A stretch of DNA of 64,000 nucleotides from Amycolatopsis granulosa (lineage in GTDB: Bacteria; Actinomycetota; Actinomycetes; Mycobacteriales; Pseudonocardiaceae). The notes below the pieces were generated by a model, which saw only the letters and a program-made list of their open reading frames with translations, had not been told where the DNA came from and made no database searches. Made by a program: the position numbers and the translations under genes. How positions within the stretch are numbered: position 1 is the first letter of the stretch; each line of letters opens with the position of its first letter. Where the stretch lies: positions 186,001 through 250,000 of the forward strand of contig NZ_JAANOV010000001.1 of assembly GCF_011758745.1 (NCBI RefSeq), given 5' to 3'. This document shows, one piece after another, positions 7,238 to 25,731 of the stretch.

Positions 7238-9013
7238 ATGGCACGCATGAGAGTCGTCGACGCCGCGGTGCTCATCCTGGAGAAGGAGGGCGCCACCCAG
7301 GCGTTCGGCCTGCCGGGTGCGGCGATCAACCCGTTCTACAGCGCCATGAAGGCCCACGGCGGCATCCGGCACGTGCTGGCCCGCCACGTCGAGGCGGCCT
7401 CGCACATGGCCGAGGGCTACAGCCGCGCCGAGCCGGGCAACATCGGCATCTGCGTCGGGACCTCCGGTCCGGCCGGCACCGACATGATCACCGGCCTGTA
7501 CTCGGCGTCGGCGGACTCCGTCCCGATCCTGTGCATCACCGGGCAGGCGCCGGTCGCCAAGCTGCACAAGGAGGACTTCCAGGCCGTCGACATCTCCGCC
7601 ATCGCCGCACCGGTCGCGAAGATGGCGGTCACCGTCCTGGAGCCCGCGCAGGTGCCGGGCACGTTCGCCAAGGCGTTCCGGCTGATGCGGGAGGGCAGGC
7701 CCGGCCCGGTGCTGATCGACCTGCCGCTCGACGTCCAGCTCGCCGAGATCGAGTTCGACATCGCCACCTACGAGCCGTTGCCGGTGGCCAGGCCCGCCGC
7801 GACCCGGGCGCAGGCCGAGCGGGCCCTGTCGATGCTGGCCGGGGCCGAGCGGCCGCTGATCGTCTCCGGCGGCGGCGTGGTCAACGCCGACGCCGCCGAG
7901 CTGCTGGTCGAATTCGCCGAGCTGACCGGCGTCCCGGTGGTGCCGACGCTGATGGGCTGGGGCACGATCCCCGACGACCATCCCCTGATGGCCGGGATGG
8001 TGGGCCTGCAAACCTCGCACCGCTACGGCAACGCGACGCTGCTGGCCAGCGATTTCGTGCTCGGCATCGGCAACCGCTGGGCCAACCGGCACACCGGCGG
8101 CCTGGACGTCTACACCGCCGGCCGCACGTTCGTGCACGTCGACATCGAGCCGACGCAGATCGGCCGGGTGTTCGCGCCGGACTACGGCATCGTGTCCGAC
8201 GCCAGGGCCGCGCTCGAGGTCTTCGTCGAGGTGGCGCGCCAGTGGCGGGCCGCGGGCCGGCTGCCGGACCGCTCGCGGTGGGCGGCGGAGTGCCGGCAGC
8301 GCCGCCGGACCCTGCTGCGCAAGACGCACTTCGACACCGTGCCGATCAAGCCGCAGCGCGTCTACCAGGAGATGAACCGCGCCTTCGGCCCCGGCACCCG
8401 CTACGTCAGCACGATCGGGCTGTCGCAGATCCAGGCCGCGCAGATGCTGCACGTCTACCAGCCGCGGCACTGGATCAACGCCGGGCAGGCCGGCCCGCTC
8501 GGCTGGACCGTTCCCGCCGCGCTGGGGGTGGCCACCGCCGACCCGGACGCCACGGTCGTGGCACTGTCCGGTGACTACGACTTCCAGTTCCTCATCGAGG
8601 AGCTGGCGGTCGGCGCGCAGTTCGGCATCCCGTACGTGCACGTGCTGGTGAACAACGCCTACCTCGGACTGATCCGGCAGGCACAGCGCGGGTTCGACAT
8701 GGACTACTGCGTCCAGCTGTCGTTCGACAACATCAACGCACCGGAGCTCGGCGGCTACGGTGTCGACCACGTCAAGGTCGCCGAAGGGCTGGGCTGCAAG
8801 GCGATCCGGGTGTTCGAGCCCGACGACATCCTGCCGTCGCTGGAAAAGGCCAAGACGCTCGCGGCGGAGCTGCGCGTGCCGGTGGTCGTCGAGATCATCC
8901 TGGAGCGGGTCACGAACGTGTCGATGGGCGCCGCGGCCATCGACGACGTGGCCGAGTTCGAGGAGCTCGCCGAGCGGCCCGGGGACGCGCCGACCGCGAT
9001 CGTCCCGGCCTGA
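7238..9013 (+). CDS. gcl: Glyoxylate carboligase (tartronate semialdehyde synthase)
   Basis: ThDP- and FAD-dependent condensation of two glyoxylates to tartronate semialdehyde plus CO2. The 591 residues match the family length (E. coli 593). In [13 protein letters not shown], Val51 occupies the place of the otherwise universal catalytic Glu of ThDP enzymes; that Val51 is the hallmark separating carboligase from acetolactate synthase. The C-terminal ThDP motif is GDYDFQF with VNNAYLGL downstream. ATG 7238 has GGAAGGAA upstream. It is central to recovery of the glyoxylate released from allantoin. Confidence 0.95.
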
Positions 9014-9023
9014 GGGGCCTCCG

Positions 9024-10169
9024 GTGCCAACGGTGTTGACGGTGCTCGTCGCTTCCGACAAGTTCAAGGGCTCGCTGACCGCGGCGCAGGTCGCCGACGC
9101 CGTGGGTGCCGGCGTGCGCCGGGCCAGGCCGGACGCGCGGGTGCGCGCGGTGCCCGTCGCCGACGGGGGCGACGGCACGCTGGCGGCGGTGCTGGCCGCG
9201 GGGTTCACCGCGGTCCCGGTCACCGCGTCCGGGCCGACGGGCGAGCCGGTGGACACCTGGTACGCCAGGCGGGGTGACGTCGCGGTGGTGGAGCTGGCCG
9301 CCGTGTCCGGGCTGGTGCGCCTGCCCGGTGGCCGGCTCCGGCCACTGCGGGCCACCAGCCGCGGCACGGGCGAGGTGATGGCCGCGGCGATCGCGGCCGG
9401 CTGCCGCGAGATCGTGCTGGGCGTCGGCGGCAGCGCCGGCACCGACGGTGGTGCCGGCCTGGTCGCCGCGCTCGGCGCGCGCCTGCTCGACGCCTCGGGC
9501 GGCGAGATCGGTGACGGCGGGGTGGCGCTGCCCGGGGTCGCCTCGATCGACCTCACCGGCCTGCGGGCGGCGACGCGGGACGTCGCGGTGACGATCGCGT
9601 CCGATGTGGACAATCCGCTGACCGGTCCGCGGGGCGCGGCGGCGGTGTACGGTCCGCAGAAGGGAGCCGGACCGGCGGAGGTCGCCCGGCTGGACGTGGC
9701 CCTGGCGCACTGGGCCGACGTGGTCGCCCGCACCACCGGCCGCGACCTGCGGGACACGCCCGGTGCGGGCGCGGCGGGAGGCGTCGGCTTCGCCGGGCTG
9801 GCCCTGCTCGGCGCGGCGCTGCGGCCGGGCATCGAGCTGGTGCTCGACCTGGCCGGGTTCTCCGGGGCCCTCCGCGGCGCCGACCTCGTCGTGACCGGGG
9901 AGGGCATGCTGGACGAGCAGACGTTGCACGGCAAGGCACCGGCCGGGGTCGCGCGGGCGGCCGGGCGTGCCGGCGTGCCGGTGGTCGCGGTGTGCGGCAG
10001 CACGACGCTGCCGCCCGCGCGGCTGCACGACACCGGCATCCGGGCGGCCTACGCGCTGACCGACCTCGAACCGGACATCGACGTCTGCCTGCGCGACGGG
10101 GCGCGGCTGCTGGAAACACTCGGCGAGCGGATCGCCGCCGAACACCTCGAGGGAGGCGAAACCGAATGA
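9024..10169 (+). CDS. glxK: Glycerate kinase
   Basis: Phosphorylates the D-glycerate made by the reductase, feeding glycolysis. The 381-residue protein opens with [18 protein letters not shown], typical of the GlxK/GarK class, and has the glycine-rich [11 protein letters not shown] segment and the late [17 protein letters not shown] motif of this family. The GTG start at 9024 lies 10 bp after glyoxylate carboligase; a second in-frame start a few codons later cannot be excluded. The stop overlaps the allantoinase ATG (ATGA, 10166-10169). Whether the product is 2- or 3-phosphoglycerate is not decidable from sequence alone. Confidence 0.93.
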
Positions 10170-11497
10170 GCGAGCGAACGCTGGTCATCCGGGCCCGCCG
10201 GACGGTCACCCCGTCCGGGGAACGGCCGGCCGCTGTCGTGGTCCGCGGGAGTGTGATCGCCGCCGTCGAGGCGTTCGACGCGGTCGTGCCGGGCGCCGAG
10301 GAGGTGCACCTGGCCGGCGACGAGGTCCTGCTGCCCGGGCTGGTGGACTCCCACGTGCACGTCAACGATCCCGGCCGCACCGAGTGGGAAGGCTTCCGCA
10401 GCGCGACCAGGGCAGCCGCGGCCGGCGGCGTGACGACCCTGGTCGACATGCCGCTCAACAGCATCCCGCCCACGGTCGACGTCGCCGCCCTGGAGACCAA
10501 GCGCAAGACCGCGCGGGACCAGATCTGGACGGACGCCGGGTTCTGGGGCGGGGCCGTGCCCGGCAACGTGCCGGACCTGCGGCCGCTGCACGAGGCCGGG
10601 GTGTTCGGGTTCAAGTGCTTCCTGTCGCCGTCGGGTGTCGAGGAGTTCGGTCACCTCGACCGGGCCCAGCTGGACGCGGCGATGCGGGAGATCGCCTCGT
10701 TCGGCGGGCTGCTGATCGTGCACGCCGAGGCCCACGACGCGGTCGGCGCCGCCCACGGCCGCGACTACCGCGACTTCCTGGCGTCCCGGCCGCGGGAGGC
10801 GGAGAACCGCGCGGTCCGGGAGGTTGTCGAGCTGTCCGGCGCGACCGGGTGCCGGGTGCACATCCTGCACGTGTCGAGCGCGGAGGTTGTGCCGATCATC
10901 GCGCAGGCCCGCGCCGGCGGGGTGGCGGTCACCGCCGAGACCTGCCCGCACTACCTGACCCTCACCGCCGAGGACATCCCGCCCGGCGCGACCCAGTTCA
11001 AGTGCTGCCCGCCGATCCGGGAACGGGACAACCGCGAACAGCTGTGGGCGGCACTGCGCGACGGTGTGATCGATCTGGTGGTCAGCGACCACTCACCGTC
11101 CACAGTGGCCCTGAAACGACTGGACTCGGGGGACTTCGGCGAGGCGTGGGGCGGTATTTCGTCGCTCCAGCTCGGTCTGCCGCTGGTGTGGACGCACGGG
11201 CGGGCGCGCGGCTTCGGGCTGTCCGATGTGGTCAGGTGGATGGCGCAGGCGCCGGCCGCGCAGACCGGGATGCGCCGCAAGGGCCGCATCGAGCCCGGCT
11301 GCGACGCGGACTTCTGCGTGCTCGCGCCGGACGAGGAGTTCGTCGTCGTGGCGCGGTCGCTGCACCACCGCAACCCGATCACCCCGTACGAGGGGCAGCG
11401 GTTGAGCGGTGTGGTGCGCAGCACGTGGCTGCGGGGCGAGCGGATCGACCTCGGCGCGCCGCCGCGGGGCCGGATGCTGGTGCGGGACGAGACGTGA
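10166..11497 (+). CDS. allB: Allantoinase
   Basis: Zinc amidohydrolase opening the allantoin ring to allantoate. The 443-residue protein has the cyclic amidohydrolase signatures: [17 protein letters not shown] (two metal His), [11 protein letters not shown] with the presumed carboxylated bridging Lys, later metal His in HAEAHD and HILHVSSAE, and catalytic Asp in VVSDHSPST. The [10 protein letters not shown] form distinguishes allantoinase from dihydroorotase and hydantoinase. The start overlaps the glycerate kinase stop. It acts on the product of OHCU decarboxylase. Confidence 0.95.
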
Positions 11498-11535
11498 GCG
11501 CCGACGGGTTTTCCGACGAGAACGGGAGAGATGGC

Positions 11536-12351
11536 ATGAACGGCCGGTACTACGCACCCACGGGCGGCCTGCCCCCGCAGACCCAGCTCACCACCGACCG
11601 GGCGGTGTTCACCGAGGCCTACGCCGTCCTGCCGCGCGGCACGATGACCGACATCGTGACCAGCAACCTGCCGTTCTGGGACGGCACGCGGGTGTGGATC
11701 CTCGCCCGGCCGCTGTCCGGGTTCGCCGAGACGTTCTCCCAGTACATCGTGGAGGTCTCACCCGGTGGCGGCTCTCAGCGGCCCGAACCGGACCCGCGCG
11801 CGGAGGGCGTGCTGTTCGTGGTCGGCGGCGAGCTGGTCGTGACGATCGGCGGCACCGCGCACACCCTCGGCGAGGGTGGTTACGCCTACCTGCCGCCCGG
11901 GACCGGCTGGAACGCGCGCAACGAGGGCGGCGAGCCGGCCCGGTTCCACTGGGTGCGCAAGGCCTACGAGGCCGTCGAGGGCATCGCCGTGCCGGAGGCG
12001 TTCGTCACCAACGAGCGCGACATCGAGCCGGCGCCGATGCCCGGCACCGGCGGCGCCTGGACGACCACCCGGTTCGTGGACCCCGCCGACCTGCGGCACG
12101 ACATGCACGTCAACATCGTCAACTTCCAGCCCGGCGCGGCGATCCCGTTCCCGGAGACGCACGTGATGGAGCACGGGCTCTACGTGCTCGAGGGCAAGGC
12201 CGTGTACCTGCTGAACAAGGACTGGGTGGAGGTGCAGGAGGGCGACTTCATGTGGCTGCGGGCGTTCTGCCCGCAGGCCTGTTACGCCGGGGGACCGGGC
12301 CGGTTCCGCTACCTGCTGTACAAGGACGTCAACCGGCACCCGAAGCTGTGA
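11536..12351 (+). CDS. allE: (S)-ureidoglycine aminohydrolase, two-cupin
   Basis: Releases ammonia from (S)-ureidoglycine to give ureidoglycolate, a Mn-dependent step after allantoate breakdown. The 271-residue protein is a bicupin: first barrel about 75-130 (EGVLFVVGGELVV, GGYAYLPPG), second about 190-260 (INFQPG-like entry, ETHVMEHGLYVLEGKAVY with metal His and Glu, DFMWLRAFCPQACYAGG). The C-terminal YLLYKDVNRHPKL is typical. ATG 11536 is used; an ATG at 11531 is in another frame. The allantoate amidohydrolase that supplies its substrate is not in this window. Confidence 0.92.
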   Translation: MNGRYYAPTGGLPPQTQLTTDRAVFTEAYAVLPRGTMTDIVTSNLPFWDGTRVWILARPLSGFAETFSQYIVEVSPGGGSQRPEPDPRAEGVLFVVGGELVVTIGGTAHTLGEGGYAYLPPGTGWNARNEGGEPARFHWVRKAYEAVEGIAVPEAFVTNERDIEPAPMPGTGGAWTTTRFVDPADLRHDMHVNIVNFQPGAAIPFPETHVMEHGLYVLEGKAVYLLNKDWVEVQEGDFMWLRAFCPQACYAGGPGRFRYLLYKDVNRHPKL

Positions 12352-17866: not shown

Positions 17867-18088
17867 TCAGCGCTGGAGCGGCCGCCGGCCCGCCCCGGTG
17901 GCCGGGCGGCAGGCCGCGCACCGCGGATCCCGCCGCCACCGCCGGGCCGCCGCGCGCAGGTCGCGGCGGCACCGGCGCCCGGGCCGGCCGTCCCGCCGCG
18001 TGCCGAACACCCGGAGTTCGGTGCGCCGGCCCCCGCACCTGGGGCAGCGCACCCGGCGGAACGCGCGGAGTACGGTGACCGCGGACAT
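17867..18088 (-). CDS. Small Arg-rich zinc-ribbon-like protein
   Basis: A possible 73-residue protein starting at ATG 18088 behind GAGGAG. It has a CPRCGG pair near residue 17 and a CRR...CAAC set towards the C-terminus, which could form a zinc site, and about one third Arg. It lies 29 bp downstream of the glycosyltransferase stop on the same strand, so it may be the last gene of the exosortase operon. No family is recognised, and very GC-rich DNA can give spurious frames, hence moderate confidence. Confidence 0.45.
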   Translation of the reverse strand: MSAVTVLRAFRRVRCPRCGGRRTELRVFGTRRDGRPGRRCRRDLRAAARRWRRDPRCAACRPATGAGRRPLQR

Positions 18089-18117
18089 GACGCTCCTCGA
18101 GGGCAGGGCGACCGCTG

Positions 18118-19494
18118 CTAACTGTCGATCGCGACGGCGGCGGGCTCGGTGTTGCGGCGGGTCTTCGTCCACCCGTTGCGTCCCCGGACGAGCCGGACGA
18201 GCGCGCGCCAGGACGTGACGTAGAACGTGTAGATGTACACCGCGTAGGCCAGGCCCATCCCGATGCCGCGCAGGAAATTCTTGCTGCGCAAGCACTTCCA
18301 CTGGTAGATCGGTCCCCACACGACGAACGGGGCGAGCCCGAACGTGCCGTAGACGGCGAAGAGGATCCAGCCGCCGCCGGTGAACCAGCCACCCATCCGG
18401 GACGGGTCGGTCACGGTGGCACCCAGGAACACCAGGAACGGCACCGGGTAGATGAGCGAGCCGAGCAACTGCATCCACGGCTGCGCCAGGTAGTACATCA
18501 TCTCTGCCGCGCCGAAGGTGCTGACATGCACCGAATCCCAGATGCGGCGCAGATAACGGCCGCACTGCATGGTTCCCTGCCCCCACCGCGTCCGCTGCGT
18601 CAGGAAGCGCCGCAAGCTGTACAGCGCCTCCTGCGACACGTGGGTGTCCGGGGTGAACTCGGTGCGCCAGCCCGCGATGAGCAGGTGGACGCCCAGCTCG
18701 AAGTCCTCCAGCAGGGAGCCGCGCCACGGCTTGAGCTCCGCGCCGCCGATGGACGCCAGCGCGGACATCCGGGTGAACTGCCCGTTGCCGCCCAGCGAGA
18801 TCGTGCCGGTGTACCGGCGCGAGGTCTGGATCGCGGCGATGGCGGTGCGGAACTCGAGATCCTGCAGCTGGGCCAGTTTCAGCCCGAACACCCGGCCCGG
18901 ACGGGATCGCGACGGCGGCGGGGCGTCCCGGTTGCTCATCCAGACGTCGACCTGGACGGCGCCTACCGTGCGGTCCCCGAAGAGGTGGCCGGCCGCGCAC
19001 ACGTCGAGGCAGCCGGGGGCGGGCCGGCCGTCCGCGTCGACCACCACCACGATCACCCGGTCGTAGTCCTCGCGCAGTCCCTGGAAGGCGACCAGCTGCG
19101 CGTAGGCCGCGTTGAGCGCGTCACCTTTGCCGGTGCGGGCCTGCGGCCGCCTGCGGCGCACGAGGTGCAGGCGCGGGTCGGGGGAGCCGCCGCGGTACTG
19201 CAAACCGGTGACGATCTGCGCGGTCCGGTCGTCGGAGTCGTCGTCCACGATCCACACGTGCGCCTGCGGGAACGTCGAGCGCAGGTAGTGGATGGTGTCG
19301 CCGATCACCGCCTCCTCGTCGCGGCAGGGCACGAAGAAGTGCCAGCTGAACGCGCTGCTGTCGCCGGCGGGTCGCGGCTTGTGCCGCACGAACGGCACGA
19401 CGATGACGGTGACGTAGACCAGGAACGCCACGCTCATCATCAACGCGAACGCCTGGGTGATACCCAGGACGACCTGGAAGGACTCGTCGCTCAT
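18118..19494 (-). CDS. Processive family-2 glycosyltransferase, exosortase-linked
   Basis: A 458-residue membrane glycosyltransferase. An N-terminal membrane segment (about 10-36) is followed by the GT2 domain: FFVPCRDEEAVIGDT, VDDDSDDR (84-90), VVDADGRPAP with the DxD-like metal site, SLLEDFELGVHL with the ED base, and QRTRWGQGTMQ, the (Q/R)xxRW motif of cellulose/hyaluronan-synthase-like processive enzymes. Several C-terminal membrane helices follow. Its start overlaps the stop of the exosortase gene (ATGA, 19491-19494). A GT2 gene next to an exosortase recalls the XrtG-type arrangement of Gram-positives, from memory. Likely role: making a surface glycan linked with, or carried by, the exosortase substrate (inference). 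Confidence 0.88.
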   Translation of the reverse strand: MSDESFQVVLGITQAFALMMSVAFLVYVTVIVVPFVRHKPRPAGDSSAFSWHFFVPCRDEEAVIGDTIHYLRSTFPQAHVWIVDDDSDDRTAQIVTGLQYRGGSPDPRLHLVRRRRPQARTGKGDALNAAYAQLVAFQGLREDYDRVIVVVVDADGRPAPGCLDVCAAGHLFGDRTVGAVQVDVWMSNRDAPPPSRSRPGRVFGLKLAQLQDLEFRTAIAAIQTSRRYTGTISLGGNGQFTRMSALASIGGAELKPWRGSLLEDFELGVHLLIAGWRTEFTPDTHVSQEALYSLRRFLTQRTRWGQGTMQCGRYLRRIWDSVHVSTFGAAEMMYYLAQPWMQLLGSLIYPVPFLVFLGATVTDPSRMGGWFTGGGWILFAVYGTFGLAPFVVWGPIYQWKCLRSKNFLRGIGMGLAYAVYIYTFYVTSWRALVRLVRGRNGWTKTRRNTEPAAVAIDS

Positions 19495-20027
19495 GCGGTC
19501 CGCTCGCGGCGCAGGCCGATCCGGACGAACAACACGAGGGCGAGGGCCCCGCCGATCACGCTGACGAGTGACCCCATCAGGGTGTGCCCCCAGTAGTAGC
19601 CCGTGGAGATCCCGAGCCAGTTCACCAGGCCGACGATGAGCAGCATGCGCAGCTGGTTGACCGCGGCGACGACGGCAGCGAAGACCAGCAGGGACAGCAG
19701 CAGCCGGCGCGTGTTCGCGGGCCGCAGGTACCCCAGCACGGCCGTCACCAGGACCAGCGGCACGACCAGGAACAGGGACGAGCACTCCGGTGTCATCTGC
19801 AGTCCCAGCGGCCGGTTGCCGCCCAGGCCGAAGTAGACGGTGTGCCTTGCGCCGGCCACGTACACCCCGTGCTCGCTGATCAAGCGCAGGACGGCGCCGG
19901 TCACCTGCACCTCGGCGGTGCGGTACGCCCCCTGGCACACCACGAGCAAGCCGACCACGGCGAGCATCGCGATGACGAGCCACCGGACCGGTAACCGGCT
20001 GGACAACGGCGCAGCGTTCGCCGACAT
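19491..20027 (-). CDS. Exosortase/archaeosortase-family transpeptidase
   Basis: A 178-residue polytopic membrane protein with about five to six helices. The proposed cysteine-protease-like triad of the family is visible: Cys82 in MTPECSSLF, Arg127 in VNQLRMLLIVG and His148 in WGHTLMG, each in a transmembrane context as expected. ATG 20027 has GGAGGG upstream; the frame is open for 47 codons more but without family-like sequence. These enzymes recognise a C-terminal tripartite sorting tail, cleave it and are thought to attach the protein to an envelope acceptor. A candidate substrate with such a tail is encoded divergently 198 bp away. The subtype is not assigned; the glycosyltransferase neighbour suggests an XrtG-like group. 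Confidence 0.85.
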   Translation of the reverse strand: MSANAAPLSSRLPVRWLVIAMLAVVGLLVVCQGAYRTAEVQVTGAVLRLISEHGVYVAGARHTVYFGLGGNRPLGLQMTPECSSLFLVVPLVLVTAVLGYLRPANTRRLLLSLLVFAAVVAAVNQLRMLLIVGLVNWLGISTGYYWGHTLMGSLVSVIGGALALVLFVRIGLRRERTA

Positions 20028-20087
20028 CGACCCTCCACAACAGACTCTCCCCAGAGCCCGGCTGACATTACCCAGCGTTTTCGCGGA

Positions 20088-20099
20088 ACTCCTAGGAGT
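20088..20099. promoter_or_regulatory. 12-bp palindrome in exosortase/substrate divergent promoter region
   Basis: ACTCCTAGGAGT is a perfect inverted repeat placed in the 198-bp gap between the divergent exosortase gene and the secreted-protein gene. Its central position would suit one regulator acting on both. No regulator gene is adjacent, and the site could be chance. Confidence 0.3.
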
Positions 20100-20225
20100 G
20101 CTACCCGCCAGGGGGATATTTGGGCCGAACGCGTGACGCTGCGCGAACCGCGCCGATAGCAAGATCACGAGCCGGCGCGGCGCCGATGGGGCGCCCGCGG
20201 CCGTGGAAGAAATCGGAGTGTCTCA

Positions 20226-20987
20226 ATGCGAAGAGCAAGGCTCGGGCTCGCCGCCGCGATGGCGGCGGGCGTGGTTCTGCTGGGTGCGGTACCCGCGTCG
20301 GCGGCCCCCGGGGACGGGTCGGCCTACGGTGCGGACGTCGACGTGACCCTGCTCGGCAAGCCGGCCGTGCACGTGGGACCGCTCGCGCAGGCGTCCACGG
20401 AAGGACCCACCAGCGGCACGCTCGTGGGCATCGACGTGCCCGGCATCGCCCACAGCGGCACGGTCCAGACAACGGCCGTGCGGGACGAGACCACGGGTGC
20501 CGTCGACAGCAAGGCGACGGTGGAGAACCTGTCGGTCGGCGTCCTGGGTGCGCTCGGCACCATCAAGGCCGACGCCGTGACCGCGGAGTGCCACGCCACC
20601 CAGGACGGCAACGCGGGTGCCGCCACGCTGGCCGGGCTGAACCTCGGCCCGCTCGGCAACGTCAGTGCCACGCCGGCGGCGAACACCGTCGTGAACGTGG
20701 GCGCGCTCGGGGCCAACGTCGCGAAGATCACGTTCAACGAGCAGATCGCCAACCCGGACGGCAGCCTGACGGTCAACGCCATCCACGTGCGCCTGCTCGG
20801 CGGTGTGCTCGGTTCCCTCGGCTCGGGCGACGTGATCGTGTCGTCGGCGACCTGCGGCCCGGCCGGGCTGCCGGTGCCGCTGGCGTCCGGTGCGGGCATG
20901 TGGATCGGGCTCTGTCTGCTGGCCGCGCTCGGCCTGCCGGCCGGAGTCTGGTTCAACCGCCGCCGCGCCACCGCGCAGGCCGTCTGA
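20226..20987 (+). CDS. Secreted surface protein with exosortase-like C-terminal sorting tail (choice-of-anchor P-like)
   Basis: A 253-residue exported protein. A signal peptide covers residues 1-27 (MRRARLGLAAAMAAGVVLL then PASAA). The mature part is Gly/Ala/Val-rich and beta-prone, with repeats of the type VLGALGTIKADAVTAECHA and PLGNVSATPAANTVVNVGALG, resembling what databases call choice-of-anchor P proteins. The last 43 residues form a sorting tail: GPAGLPVPLASG, one membrane helix (about 224-243) and FNRRR, close in layout to PEP-CTERM tails. The divergent neighbour is an exosortase, so this is its probable substrate (inference). Two Cys (AECHA, SATCG) may form a disulfide. Confidence 0.8.
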   Translation: MRRARLGLAAAMAAGVVLLGAVPASAAPGDGSAYGADVDVTLLGKPAVHVGPLAQASTEGPTSGTLVGIDVPGIAHSGTVQTTAVRDETTGAVDSKATVENLSVGVLGALGTIKADAVTAECHATQDGNAGAATLAGLNLGPLGNVSATPAANTVVNVGALGANVAKITFNEQIANPDGSLTVNAIHVRLLGGVLGSLGSGDVIVSSATCGPAGLPVPLASGAGMWIGLCLLAALGLPAGVWFNRRRATAQAV

Positions 20988-21000
20988 CGGGCGAGGGCGG

Positions 21001-21180
21001 ATGTACCGGATGCCCGGCGCCGGGATCACCACCGCGGGCGGCACCGCGGGCACGCTCGCCTATACCGGTGCCGATGTCGGTTGGTGGATCGCGCTCGGCG
21101 TGATCCTCGTGCTCGCCGGGATCGCGGCACTCGTCGCCGCGACCCGTCGCAGCAGGAGACTCGCCGGTTCCCGGAAATGA
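21001..21180 (+). CDS. 59-residue protein with LAYTG sortase anchor signal
   Basis: A minimal protein: 18 Gly/Thr-rich residues, then LAYTG (19-23), a hydrophobic helix (about 27-46) and a basic tail TRRSRRLAGSRK. This is the complete layout of an LAxTG class E sortase signal with almost nothing to anchor and no N-terminal signal peptide. ATG 21001 has a weak GAGGGCGG upstream and lies 13 bp after the surface protein stop, so co-transcription is likely. It could be a tiny membrane protein, or the remnant of a larger anchored protein whose tail now follows the exosortase-type gene. No sortase gene is in the window. Confidence 0.6.
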   Translation: MYRMPGAGITTAGGTAGTLAYTGADVGWWIALGVILVLAGIAALVAATRRSRRLAGSRK

Positions 21181-21239
21181 GGTTCGCGGCCGCCGCCGAG
21201 GGCGGCGGCCGCGGACTCCCCACTCGTCAGGAGACTCAC

Positions 21240-22400
21240 GTGGACATCATGCTGCTGGCCGGAACTCGCCCGGAGGCGGTGAAGCTGGCGCCGCTGGCGC
21301 TCGCGCTGCCCGGGCACCCCGTCCTGCGTCCCGTCATAGTCCACAGTGGACAACATGACGGGATGGTCGAGCAGGCGCTCGCGCCGTTCGGCCTGCTCGT
21401 GGACGACCGGCTGCCCACTCCGGTGCGGCGCAACGGGGGACAGGCCGAGCTGGTCGCGGGTCTGCTGCCGTCGCTCGACGGGTTCCTGCGCCGCAGGAGC
21501 CCGGCCGCGGTGGTCGTCCAGGGCGACACGACGACGGTGCTGGCCGGCGCGCTCGCCGCGTTCTGGCGCGGCATCCCCGTGGTGCACCTGGAGGCGGGCC
21601 TGCGCACCCACGACCTCGCCGCGCCGTTCCCCGAGGAGGGCACCCGGCAGATGGTGTCGCGCCTGGCGGCACTGCACCTCGCGCCGACCGGTGCCGCCGT
21701 CGCCGCGCTGCTGGGCGAAGGGGTGCCGGCCGAGCGGATCGTCCTGACCGGCAACACCGTCGTGGACGCCGTGGAGCACATCGCCGCTCGCGGCCGGCCT
21801 GCTCAGGACCGGGCACTCGCGGCGGCCGAACTGCGGCTGCTGGAGCAGGGGCGGCGGCTGGTGCTGGTGACCTCCCACCGGCGCGAGTCGTGGGGAAAGC
21901 CCTTGCAGCGCGTCCTGTCCGCCGTGCGGGACCTGGTGCGCCGGCGGCCCGATGTCGAGGTGCTGTTCCCGGTCCACCCCAACCCGGCCCTGCGCGACCA
22001 GGTCACCACGGCACTGTCGGGAGTACCGCGGATCACGGTCACCGGGCCGCTGGAGTACCCCGACCTCGTGCGCGCGCTCCGCCTGGCCACGGTGGTGCTC
22101 ACCGATTCCGGGGGGATCCAGGAGGAGGCACCGAGTTTCGGCACGCCGGTGGTCGTGCTGCGGGACACCACCGAGCGACGGGAGGCGATCGACAGCGGGC
22201 ACGCCCGTCTCGTGGGCACGGACCCCGCCGCGATCGGCCGGGCCACCGAGGACGTGTTGTCGGGGCGGTGGCGCCCGGCGAGCCCGGCCAACCCGTACGG
22301 CGACGGCAAGGCCGCGCAGCGGGCGGTGGCGGCCATCGGCGAGCTGCTCGCCGTGCCGTCGCGCAGCCGGGTGCTCGCCCCGCCCGAACCGGTGCCCTGA
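21240..22400 (+). CDS. wecB: UDP-N-acetylglucosamine 2-epimerase, non-hydrolysing
   Basis: Interconverts UDP-GlcNAc and UDP-ManNAc in the cytosol, supplying an activated sugar for envelope glycans. The 386 residues show family motifs AGTRPEAVKLAPL, VVVQGDTTTVLAGALAAF, VHLEAGLRTHDL, FPEEGTRQM, LTGNTVVDAV and the UDP-binding TDSGGIQEEAP. GTG 21240 follows AGGAG. It lies 60 bp after the LAYTG protein on the same strand. Neighbouring glycosyltransferase and exosortase genes suggest that its product is used for a glycan on or around the exosortase substrate (inference). Confidence 0.93.
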   Translation: MDIMLLAGTRPEAVKLAPLALALPGHPVLRPVIVHSGQHDGMVEQALAPFGLLVDDRLPTPVRRNGGQAELVAGLLPSLDGFLRRRSPAAVVVQGDTTTVLAGALAAFWRGIPVVHLEAGLRTHDLAAPFPEEGTRQMVSRLAALHLAPTGAAVAALLGEGVPAERIVLTGNTVVDAVEHIAARGRPAQDRALAAAELRLLEQGRRLVLVTSHRRESWGKPLQRVLSAVRDLVRRRPDVEVLFPVHPNPALRDQVTTALSGVPRITVTGPLEYPDLVRALRLATVVLTDSGGIQEEAPSFGTPVVVLRDTTERREAIDSGHARLVGTDPAAIGRATEDVLSGRWRPASPANPYGDGKAAQRAVAAIGELLAVPSRSRVLAPPEPVP

Positions 22401-22625: not shown

Positions 22626-22824
22626 CCACCTCGCCCTCCTGCACCAGCAGCCGCAGCACGCCCGCCGCCGGGGCGGGCACCTCCACGTCCACCTTGTCGA
22701 CCGCGACCTCCGCGATCAGGTCGCCCTCGCCGACCCGGTCGCCGTCGCCGGCGAACCAGGTGGCGAGGACGCCCTCGGCGTCGGGCTCGTTCTCCGAGAC
22801 GCGCGGGAAGGCGATGTCGGTCAT
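22591..22824 (-). CDS. Stand-alone lipoyl-domain protein
   Basis: A 77-residue protein consisting of one biotinyl/lipoyl domain. The lipoylated Lys is in EVAVDKVDVEVPAPAAG, preceded by AGDGDRVGEGDLI and followed by VVKQGEVIARIE. It starts at ATG 22824 inside the E1 beta stop (ATGA overlap). Normally this domain is the N-terminus of an E2 acyltransferase, but the stop falls directly after the domain and no E2 catalytic core or E3 follows. It may act as a mobile swinging arm shared with E2/E3 encoded elsewhere. Confidence 0.85.
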   Translation of the reverse strand: MTDIAFPRVSENEPDAEGVLATWFAGDGDRVGEGDLIAEVAVDKVDVEVPAPAAGVLRLLVQEGEVVKQGEVIARIE

Positions 22825-23867
22825 GCGCCCACCAGGCCGAGGACGGCCCGGCGGATCCGGTCCGGCGTCGGCAGCACGGCGTACTCGAGCGGGCGGGCGT
22901 AGGGGATCGGGACGTCGGGCACCGCCACCCGGGCGGCGGGCGCGCGGAGCAGGCCGGGGTCGCGCTCGGCGACCCGGGCGATGATCTCGCCGGACACCCC
23001 GAACGACAGGTAGTCCTCGTCGACGACGAGCAGCCGCCCGGTGCGCCCCACCGATTCCAGGATCGTCTCGGTGTCCAGCGGGACCACGCTGCGCAGATCC
23101 ACGACCTCGCAGTCGACGCCCTGCTGCGCGAGTTCCTCGGCCACGTCCAGCGCGTGGTGCACCGACAGCGACAACGTCACCACCGTGACGTCGCTGCCCG
23201 GCCGCACGACGTTCGCCTTGCCGATCGGCACCAGATGCTCGCCTTCGGGAACCGGGCCGACGGACCGGCGGTTCTTGGCCATCCAGGGCAGGCCCATCAC
23301 TCCCTTGTGGAACAGGTACACCACCGGGTTGTCGTCGCGGATCGCGGCGGTCATCAGGCCCTTGGCGTCGGCGGGGTTGCTGGGCGCGACCACCTTCATC
23401 CCGGGCAGGTGCGCGAACGTGCCCCACAGGCACTGCGAGTGCTGCGCGCCGTCGGAGTAGCCGCCGCCCACCGCGGCGGTGAGCACCATCGGGACGGTGA
23501 CGTTGCCGCCGGACTCGAAGTGGATCTTCGCCATGTGGTTGTAGATCTGGTCCATGCACACACCGAAGAAGTCGACGAACATCAGCTCGACCACCGGCCG
23601 CATGCCTTCGACCGCGGCGCCGATGGCCGCGCCGATGAACGCGGTCTCCGAAATGGGCGTGTCCAGGACACGCCGGGGCCCGAACTTCTCGAGCAGCCCG
23701 GTGGTGGAGCTGAAGATGCCGCCGTAGGCACCGACGTCCTCGCCGAGCACGAAGACGTCCTCGTCGCGCTCCATTTCCTGCGCGATGGCCTCGACCATGG
23801 CCTTGGCGGTGCTGAGCTTGCGCTGGGCGGGTGCGGAGGAGGATGCCGAAGCGTCCGTGAGCGTCAT
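22821..23867 (-). CDS. 2-oxoacid/acetoin dehydrogenase E1 component, beta subunit
   Basis: The 348-residue beta subunit of a ThDP-dependent alpha2beta2 dehydrogenase. Family features include AMVEAIAQEMERDEDVFVLG, RVLDTPISETAFIGAAIGAA, MRPVVELMFVDFFG, the long SDGAQHSQCLWGTFAHLPGMK region and a transketolase C-terminal domain with GRLLVVDEDYLSFG. The N-terminus carries 15-20 extra Ser/Ala-rich residues. It overlaps the lipoyl-domain gene downstream and lies 39 bp after the alpha subunit gene. Acetoin and pyruvate are the most likely substrates; branched-chain acids cannot be excluded. Confidence 0.92.
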   Translation of the reverse strand: MTLTDASASSSAPAQRKLSTAKAMVEAIAQEMERDEDVFVLGEDVGAYGGIFSSTTGLLEKFGPRRVLDTPISETAFIGAAIGAAVEGMRPVVELMFVDFFGVCMDQIYNHMAKIHFESGGNVTVPMVLTAAVGGGYSDGAQHSQCLWGTFAHLPGMKVVAPSNPADAKGLMTAAIRDDNPVVYLFHKGVMGLPWMAKNRRSVGPVPEGEHLVPIGKANVVRPGSDVTVVTLSLSVHHALDVAEELAQQGVDCEVVDLRSVVPLDTETILESVGRTGRLLVVDEDYLSFGVSGEIIARVAERDPGLLRAPAARVAVPDVPIPYARPLEYAVLPTPDRIRRAVLGLVGA

Positions 23868-23906
23868 TGCTGCTTCTCCTTGCTTGCTGGCGTGCCGGTG
23901 GTGGGT

Positions 23907-24896
23907 TCAGGCCCGCGCGAACACGTGGTCGAGCGCGGTGGCCGGGTCGGGTTCCGGGCTGCGCTTGGCGAACTCGATCGCCGCCTCGACGCGGTCGCGG
24001 GCCTGCGCGGCGATCGACGCCACCGTGATGTCGCCGCTGTCGTGGAGGACACCGGCCGCCCGCAGCTGCTTTTCGTAGGTGGGCAGCGGGTCCCGGCCCG
24101 GCACACCCTCCAGGTCGGACCGGTAGCCCTGCGCGTCGCCCTCGAAATGCCCCCACAGGCGCAGCGTGTGCACCTCGATCAGGCTCGGCCCCTCGCCCGC
24201 GCGGGCCCGCTTGATCGCCGTACCGGCCGCCGCGTGCACCGCCTCCACCGAGTTGTCCTCGACGCGCTCGCCGGGAATGCCGTACCCGCCGGCCCGCAGC
24301 GCGTTCGAGGTGACGCAGGTCGAGGCGCTGCGCGGCACCGAGATGCCCCAGTCGTTGTCCTCCACCACGAACACCACCGGCAGCTTCCACAGCGCCGCCA
24401 GGTTGAGCGCCTCGTGGAAGGCACCCTGGTTGGCCGCGCCCTCACCGGTGACGGCGACCGCGACCCGGTCGGTGCCCCGCCGCTGGAACGCCAGCGCCTG
24501 GCCGACCGCGGGCGGGTAGCCCTCGGCGATGATGCCCGAGCAGGAGAAGTGCGTGGCGGGGTCGAACAGGTGCATGTGCCCGCCGCGGCCCCGGCCGAGC
24601 CCGTCCACCCGGCCGAAGATCTCGGCGGTCATCCGCTCCAGGTCCACCCCGTGCGCGATGGCGAAGTGGTGGGGCCGGTGGGTGGCGGTGACGGCGTCGT
24701 CGGCGGTCAGGTGCGCGCACACCCCGGCGGCCACGGGTTCCTGCCCGGCGGCCAGGTGCATCTCGCCGGGGATGAGCCCGGCGCCGATGTCGAAGGCGGG
24801 CTTCTTGTCCGCGTGGTACTCGCGCAGGATCGACTCCTCGTAGGTGCGGATCAGGACCATCGTGCGGTACAGGGCCAGCCGGTCGTCCGGTTCCAT
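23907..24896 (-). CDS. 2-oxoacid/acetoin dehydrogenase E1 component, alpha subunit
   Basis: The 329-residue ThDP-binding alpha subunit. Visible are GEMHLAAGQEPVAAGV, HRPHHFAIAHG, GRGRGGHMHLFD and the ThDP/Mg motif GEGAANQGAFHEALNLAALW, then VVEDNDWGISVP. ATG 24896 directly follows GGGAGG at good spacing, so it is preferred over the in-frame start four codons upstream. It is the first structural gene after the IclR regulator on the same strand, 97 bp away. Sequence resembles AcoA of acetoin dehydrogenase as much as pyruvate dehydrogenase E1 alpha. Confidence 0.92.
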   Translation of the reverse strand: MEPDDRLALYRTMVLIRTYEESILREYHADKKPAFDIGAGLIPGEMHLAAGQEPVAAGVCAHLTADDAVTATHRPHHFAIAHGVDLERMTAEIFGRVDGLGRGRGGHMHLFDPATHFSCSGIIAEGYPPAVGQALAFQRRGTDRVAVAVTGEGAANQGAFHEALNLAALWKLPVVFVVEDNDWGISVPRSASTCVTSNALRAGGYGIPGERVEDNSVEAVHAAAGTAIKRARAGEGPSLIEVHTLRLWGHFEGDAQGYRSDLEGVPGRDPLPTYEKQLRAAGVLHDSGDITVASIAAQARDRVEAAIEFAKRSPEPDPATALDHVFARA

Positions 24897-24993
24897 GTGA
24901 CCTCCCAATCGGTGTGGGAGTCACTGTCGCGGGGCCCCGCGGCACCGGCAACGGTGCGGATTTCAGATGGTGATACCGGGCCGTTTCCGCTGG

Positions 24994-25731
24994 TCAGGAC
25001 AGCAGTGCGAAGGCGCGGGAAACGCGCCGCGAAGCGCGCTGCAACGAGACCGGCTCGACCGAGGGCAGCCGGCGCGCGGGCAGCGAGATCGCCACCGCGC
25101 CGACCACCCCGGGCGCCCGCACCGGCGTGGCCAGGCAGGCCGTGCCGAGCAGGTACTCCTCGCGGTCGTTGAAGACGCCGCCGCCCTCGGCCAGGCGCTG
25201 CTCGAGCAGCCGGGTGTCGGTGATGGTGTGCGGGGTGAGGTCGGCCAGCCGGTACCGGGCGAGGTGGTCGCGCCGGGCCCCCGGATCCAGGCACGCCAGG
25301 ATGCACTTGCCGAACGCGGTGGCGTGCGCTGCCTCCTGCACGCCCACCCACAGATCCACCGGCGGGGTGTCCGGGGCGTCGGCGATGTCGACCAGCTCGA
25401 TCTCGCCGCCGGAGTACAGCGACAGGTACGCGGCGCCGCGGACCTCGTCCCGCAGCGCGCGCAGCACCGGACGGATCTTCGGCAGCAGCGCGTGCCGGGT
25501 GTCGTGCCGCCGCAGCGCGCCGAGCTGCTCGCCCAGCACGTAGCCGTCGTCGAGCTTGCGGAGGTAGCCCTCGTGCAGCAGGGTGCGCAGGAGGTGGTAG
25601 GTGGTGGGCAGCGGGAGCCCGACCCCGCGGGCGAGTGCCTTGGCCGTGACCGGCCGGTCGCTCGCGCCGACCGCGTCGAGCAGGTGCAGTGCGCGCTGTA
25701 CGGATCCGATCAGTGTCGGTCCAGCAGCCAT
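24994..25731 (-). CDS. IclR-family transcriptional regulator
   Basis: A 245-residue one-component regulator: N-terminal winged helix (RALHLLDAVGASDRPVTAKALARGVGLP, then TYHLLRTLLHEGYL) and C-terminal effector domain from about 75 (AHATAFGKCILACLDP, FNDREEYLLGTACLATPV). ATG 25731 follows GGAGGTGACCG, a near-ideal ribosome site. It lies immediately upstream of the E1 alpha/E1 beta/lipoyl genes on the same strand and is their likely controller. The effector is unknown; such domains often bind the pathway substrate. Confidence 0.9.
   Translation of the reverse strand: MAAGPTLIGSVQRALHLLDAVGASDRPVTAKALARGVGLPLPTTYHLLRTLLHEGYLRKLDDGYVLGEQLGALRRHDTRHALLPKIRPVLRALRDEVRGAAYLSLYSGGEIELVDIADAPDTPPVDLWVGVQEAAHATAFGKCILACLDPGARRDHLARYRLADLTPHTITDTRLLEQRLAEGGGVFNDREEYLLGTACLATPVRAPGVVGAVAISLPARRLPSVEPVSLQRASRRVSRAFALLS

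Follow-up and report, generated by a model that had tools for sequence, protein, structure and literature searches.

In Gram-positive bacteria, the exosortase XrtG is paired with a glycosyltransferase (GT). The attachment target of exosortase substrates is, to our knowledge, an open question. In the accessible part of one source the acceptor is called 'an unidentified compound' (PMC7468200). PEP-CTERM/EpsH systems, as portrayed in the available part of PMC1569441, combine substrates carrying a C-terminal motif, a helix and a basic cluster with an enzyme bearing a sortase-like triad, and are linked to polysaccharide genes; EpsH is described there as not homologous to sortases, and the hosts as possessing an outer membrane. 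The accessible text of PMC3237569 gives one enzyme and one target as the mark of a dedicated sorting system. The window analysed here (the whole stretch of 64,000 nucleotides, positions 186,001 to 250,000 of contig NZ_JAANOV010000001.1 of Amycolatopsis granulosa) contains a five-gene cassette, which very probably represents such a one-enzyme, one-substrate exosortase pair, XrtP and CoaP, joined to a glycan module of a family 2 GT (GT2), WecB and a LAXTG mini-protein. The host is Gram-positive.

The XrtP/CoaP cassette and its parts

The cassette comprises two divergent units, GT2 and exosortase on the minus strand and CoaP, the LAXTG mini-protein and WecB on the plus strand. It is a real observation, beyond chance, because all five proteins exceed curated cut-offs and because order and strands are identical in 68/68 five-gene loci (window included); since NCBIfam models match every part, it is a member of a system already named by NCBI curators. 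The loci derive from a GT-based scan of named genomes (best 80 of 81 relatives plus the window, 81 loci). An earlier note on this DNA, made from the letters alone, had read the same five genes; all are present, with CoaP divergent from the exosortase and a 4 bp overlap of the exosortase open reading frame (ORF) with the GT2 start, and the conserved neighbourhood that it had proposed to look for is found among relatives. Its region start, 17867, marks a different ORF that overlaps the GT; the GT itself ends at 18118.

Exosortase P (XrtP, 19491-20027, minus strand, 178 aa) adjoins the XrtP-associated GT and the CoaP_CTERM protein and scores 210.6 bits against NF012139 (cut-off 200) in an NCBIfam profile search, so that the hidden Markov model (HMM) check suggested earlier yields an exosortase over its curated cut-off. 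The general exosortase signature TIGR04178 is likewise passed (35.2 bits, cut-off 23). XrtG identity (TIGR03110), to which the earlier note had leaned, is rejected by a score of 16.1 bits (cut-off 102.75); an XrtG search of the whole genome gave no match, yet control genomes gave none either. The PEP-CTERM/EpsH exosortase models remain under cut-off (PF09721 21.5/25.7 bits, TIGR02602 18.7/105.55). The numbering Cys82/Arg127/His148 given earlier is exact, and in an alignment of 83 exosortase homologues the three residues are kept in 79, 82 and 81 sequences, respectively; the loss of the catalytic Cys that might have been feared in orthologues is thus confined to four. The AlphaFold model of XrtP (predicted local distance difference test, pLDDT, 79.7) displays five long helices and a small beta element; it has no match among PDB structures at E <= 0.001, and the protein no sequence relative there. 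XrtP and CoaP are separated by a divergent intergenic region of 198 bp (20028-20225, no strand), delimited by sequence.

CoaP (20226-20987, plus strand) consists of a signal-peptide-like N-terminus, a choice-of-anchor P beta domain (NF040603, 96.4 bits, cut-off 27) and a CoaP_CTERM sorting tail of motif, membrane helix and RRR (20868-20969, plus strand, residues 215-248; NF053845, 51.9 bits, cut-off 35). Hydropathy indicates hydrophobic segments at residues 4-29 and 214-244. The tail consensus reads P-x-P-[LM]-A-S-G-x-G-[LM]-W, followed by the helix and a basic end; the FNRRR noticed earlier is indeed present in this tail. The AlphaFold model (pLDDT 84.2) contains an 11-strand beta domain and a C-terminal helix (194-224 of the model), without PDB match at E <= 0.001 (best E 0.017, template modelling score 0.24) and without PDB sequence relative; because no PDB match is confident, no function is drawn from the fold. 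A weak Pfam match to HtaA (E 0.11) was not used. The genome-wide tail search proposed earlier found one CoaP_CTERM match in the window's genome with 150 of 209 first-look candidates scored, i.e. at least one, which fits a single target.

The same genome encodes three choice-of-anchor P paralogues, and only CoaP is tailed. The window's genome and A. anabasis have in common choice-of-anchor P paralogues (G000:C1:3694637-3695017, locus L135, and L130) whose Thr/Pro-rich end closes in PTPVKAHLDVTG; another mode of surface attachment is possible for them. At 27/80 named loci, many of them from Lentzea and Saccharothrix, WecB is followed by a second choice-of-anchor P paralogue that lacks the tail (example L063:4188-4979, minus strand, no membrane tail). 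Most of these proteins stop, with ACSPTP or ACTPTP as last residues, near the position at which a tail would start.

The GT2 (18118-19494, minus strand, 458 aa) scores 730.4 bits against NF053846 (cut-off 520) and 93.4 bits against Glyco_tranf_2_3. It is of processive type (QxxRW, present in 90/93 GT rows), possesses hydrophobic segments at the N-terminus and in the C-terminal half by hydropathy, and has no sequence relative in PDB. The mini-protein (21001-21180, plus strand, 59 aa, motif LAYTG) reaches 85.1 bits against the LAXTG_small_WW model of class E sortase substrates (NF058583, cut-off 65); hydropathy indicates a single hydrophobic segment, 19-51, and no separate signal peptide was seen. 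No sortase match occurs within the window, and four, not assigned to a class, lie elsewhere in the genome. WecB (21240-22400, plus strand; TIGR00236, 354.7 bits, cut-off 210.15) is a non-hydrolysing UDP-N-acetylglucosamine (UDP-GlcNAc) 2-epimerase, i.e. a source of UDP-N-acetylmannosamine (UDP-ManNAc). Genes resembling 2-oxo acid dehydrogenase subunits and an IclR-type regulator, recognised by eye, follow the cassette (window 22821-25731, minus strand).

Co-occurrence, natural losses and the sortase version

XrtP exceeds its cut-off in one of 296 phylum-sample genomes, the window's own (G040 matched at only 23 bits), and in 59 of 249 genomes of the family (71 at any score). In these 249 genomes the GT is over cut-off in 67, CoaP_CTERM in at least 64 and LAXTG in 59, and a weaker GT2 match is found in every one; tail counts are lower bounds, 29 first-look candidates having been scored per genome. 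Of the 59 XrtP genomes, 58 also possess the tail, and neither was found in 184 of the 249. The sole exception is G419, where the tail stretch is masked by a run of N (seen at L051). At least six genomes carry a tail with no XrtP over cut-off: G301 with two XrtP under cut-off (191 and 177 bits), G321 with another exosortase on a different contig, and G405, G422, G535 and G467 with no XrtP match. XrtP is accompanied by the GT in 59/59 genomes and by LAXTG in 57/59 (just under cut-off in G325 and G427). Fisher values near 1e-48 for these co-occurrences ignore relatedness and are not readable as probabilities. The tails found track enzyme number: 57 genomes have one XrtP and one tail found, and G447 has two XrtP and at least two tails.

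Active XrtP, tail motif, LAXTG and WecB are all present at 67 of the 81 loci, and L051 differs only by its masked tail. The other loci bear a dead exosortase (L055, L081), none (L090, L092, L093, L095, L104) or a different one (L106-L109, L111, L112). The family census, in which an active XrtP locus is one with intact triad and >=190 bits on a profile built for this analysis, shares assemblies with the 81-locus set and is not independent of it. Among its 62 active loci the consensus tail occurs at 59, the exceptions being both G301 copies and one masked stretch, and the LAXTG motif at 60 (pattern limited to the aligned stretch).

Four of the 83 exosortase homologues lack the Cys: L055 (V; Arg to His), L081 (N; His to Ala), L118 (H; His to Ala) and L128 (G). 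All four lie at loci without tailed CoaP, and their genomes, G544 (150/344 candidates scored), G353 and G421, yielded no CoaP_CTERM over cut-off; G544 holds L055, and L081 comes from the same named strain. Dead exosortases probably arose three times (L055; L081 with L118; L128), as the GT tree separates L055 from L081/L118, and L128, which has no GT, was judged by its own sequence. The L081 and L118 exosortases differ in 43% of residues (dN 0.325, dS 1.02), with a ratio of nonsynonymous to synonymous rates (dN/dS) of ~0.32; five active pairs range from 0.21 to 0.43, L055/L035 gives 0.30 and L128/L127 gives 0.83. For this one pair, compared by a simple method, the ratio suggests that the dead enzyme is kept for a non-catalytic role.

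The converse loss is seen in G405, G422, G535 and G467, whose tails, without exosortase, fail the strict motif in 4/4 cases vs 2/61 unmasked active XrtP loci. At these orphan-tail loci, LAXTG has lost its WW with the motif kept (L113), lost the motif (L115), was not found (L116) or is intact (L114). The GT is in pieces at L113, was not found at L114 and L115, and is full-length without QxxRW at L116 (G467).

Class E sortase matches occur directly after the GT at L081 and L118 and after WecB at L090, L092, L093, L095 and L124. L119, L120, L121 and L198, where a different exosortase has its triad intact, show such a match at a distance of a few kb. The six tested copies (L081, L090, L092, L118, L119, L124) pass NF033747 with 179.5-217.4 bits (cut-off 160); at L093, L095, L120, L121 and L198 the basis is tblastn alone. 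In the 81-locus set a sortase accompanies 0/68 active XrtP loci vs 5/6 loci at which GT, LAXTG and WecB are present and the exosortase is either dead or absent, the sixth being L055 (Fisher 3.7e-7, not corrected for kinship); L104, which has neither LAXTG nor sortase, was left out. Among census loci, L118 and L124 have a sortase and L113-L117, L123, L125, L126 and L128 have none. In both sets the sortase search covered the retrieved stretch of each locus, and some stretches end at a contig edge. Chance placement is unlikely because genomes hold only 4 to 9 sortase matches (five genomes checked). At L124, two further genes stand out in sortase-version loci: a dehydrogenase related to a family of daptides, which are ribosomally synthesised and post-translationally modified peptides (10561-11760, minus strand, 185.7 bits, cut-off 300), and one for a conserved protein of 745 aa that matches no NCBIfam model (8068-10302, minus strand).

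In a GT tree of 45 chosen rows of 93, of unknown root, one clade (100/100) unites the five sortase loci that have no exosortase; it is nested in a 16-row Amycolatopsis-type clade (100/100) whose other members hold XrtP or its dead form. The two loci with sortase and dead exosortase make up a separate clade (100/100). By this topology the sortase version would have at least two separate origins; the direction of change we infer. Three strains carry one locus of each version (L047/L090, L042/L092, L054/L095); A. orientalis, Amycolatopsis sp. 2-2 and A. echigonensis are among the species and strains that hold both. These observations support two modules within the cassette, one of glycan and LAXTG genes and one for anchoring that can be exchanged. 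Neither the tail/triad co-loss nor the sortase version is described in the literature matches listed, and both are new as far as the literature was searched.

Proposed function and rival explanations

Because tail and triad are lost together and a sortase lies at the locus in several relatives whose exosortase is dead or absent, the data support CoaP as the dedicated substrate of XrtP. CoaP would be exported via its signal peptide and held in the membrane by its tail helix. XrtP, with Cys, Arg and His within the membrane, would recognise the tail motif at the outer face, cut there and hand the new CoaP C-terminus to an acceptor. WecB would supply UDP-ManNAc, and the GT would make and export a polymer from UDP-ManNAc or UDP-GlcNAc. 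This polymer or a lipid-linked form of it would be the likeliest acceptor of CoaP. The mini-protein would belong to the glycan module, its anchoring left to a sortase from another part of the genome. The earlier proposal, in which a processive-type GT2 and a UDP-sugar enzyme accompany an exosortase that serves a single dedicated substrate, finds support in HMM matches, Cys conservation and neighbourhood. Its further step, glycosylation of one dedicated surface protein, goes further than the data: GT, LAXTG and WecB also occur without exosortase and CoaP at the locus, and a CoaP-glycan conjugate is at most presumed.

Several points weigh against the pair-and-module interpretation. The sequences are related, and counts are not independent events. 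Beyond gene identities, co-occurrence, tail-triad co-loss and modular relatives, which are observed, we infer cleavage, transfer, sugar identity and acceptor. The strict [LM] motif was fixed after seeing the data, and with V allowed at the fourth place G405 passes and 3/4 orphan tails still depart. GT, LAXTG and WecB occur without exosortase or CoaP at L090, L092, L093, L095 and L124; these loci rule out an inseparable unit of all five genes, and because of them the glycan should have a role apart from CoaP. Ten other homologues (L106-L109, L111, L112, L119-L122) retain the Cys at loci where the CoaP HMM finds nothing, and at all but L106, L119 and L120 a pattern scan, which missed the L106 protein, found no substrate.

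That XrtP releases CoaP without conjugation, and that the GT makes an independent wall glycan with no link beyond the common locus, is possible but rather unlikely. A soluble CoaP form seems useful, since tailless and presumably freely secreted paralogues sit at 27/80 loci, and the glycan module also occurs alone; against this, release would need no enzyme if the gene were tailless, XrtP is never found without the GT (59/59 genomes), and the GT also adjoins XrtS (L107) and XrtR (L112), both by cut-off. It is improbable that the exosortase homologue chiefly serves the GT as membrane partner or scaffold, with proteolysis secondary. The copies at L081 and L118, lacking Cys and His, are still open reading frames and lie beside the GT with dN/dS inside the active range, but the triad is conserved in nearly all homologues and the GT stands without any exosortase at five loci. 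Moreover, the method was crude and covered one dead pair, the remaining two dead copies are alone, and L128/L127 departs from the active range. The mini-protein itself as acceptor, a sortase-anchored wall peptide onto which XrtP ligates CoaP, would fit its presence over cut-off in 57/59 XrtP genomes and its motif at 60/62 active loci; we consider this quite unlikely, as it is kept without CoaP where the exosortase is dead or absent (L055, L081, L118, L090, L092). More tentatively than the proposed XrtP/CoaP pair, GT, WecB and LAXTG may form a surface-glycan platform with an exchangeable anchor (exosortase and tailed CoaP, or class E sortase), changed at least twice, one lineage perhaps keeping a dead exosortase under purifying selection as structural GT partner.

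The ten Cys-keeping homologues without CoaP are other exosortase types. At L106 (Mangrovihabitans), a distant CoaP-like protein (weak tblastn match, plus strand ORF ending at 10261) lies beside such an exosortase. Its proline-rich membrane tail differs from that of CoaP, and it may combine the same substrate domain with a sorting signal of another kind. Two proteins each at L119 (4622-5656 and 11499-13226, plus strand) and L120 (1553-3280 and 9111-10289, minus strand) look repeat-like, resemble one another in their membrane tails and end in RRR; they lie near exosortases that fall between XrtS, XrtP and XrtR; those of L119 and L121 are under all three cut-offs and over the general TIGR04178. 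The tailed proteins are candidate substrates of a further exosortase type.

Comparison with described systems

The window matches the NCBIfam models of XrtP, its associated GT and CoaP (NF012139, NF053846, NF053845, NF040603), all over cut-off and without difference. No paper on XrtP or CoaP is among the literature matches listed, which largely exclude subscription journals; papers on other 'choice-of-anchor' proteins exist. With the XrtG system the cassette shares an exosortase beside a GT2 and differs in an exosortase well under the XrtG cut-off. The class E sortase/LAXTG system (PMC5148588, among the literature matches listed) is resembled by the cassette in the mini-protein and by some relatives' loci in the class E sortase; the window differs in lacking a sortase match. 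Enzymes of the type IX secretion system (T9SS) differ from those of exosortase systems, and its membrane and sugars differ from those of the cassette. In T9SS, according to the accessible part of PMC7468200, a protein C-terminus is joined to a sugar, a functional analogy to the proposed CoaP-glycan link with no homology implied.

The enzyme and its single substrate lie side by side with the glycan synthase and the sugar supply in soil actinomycetes that are named and sequenced, and enzyme-dead, enzyme-less and sortase-bearing versions exist naturally, some within the same strain; because of both, the acceptor question becomes directly testable. Compared with PEP-CTERM/EpsH systems, which have several substrates, the cassette has one, and its exosortase falls under the PF09721 and TIGR02602 cut-offs; tail architecture, conserved triad and polysaccharide genes are common to both, as far as the available part of the source describes them (PMC1569441).

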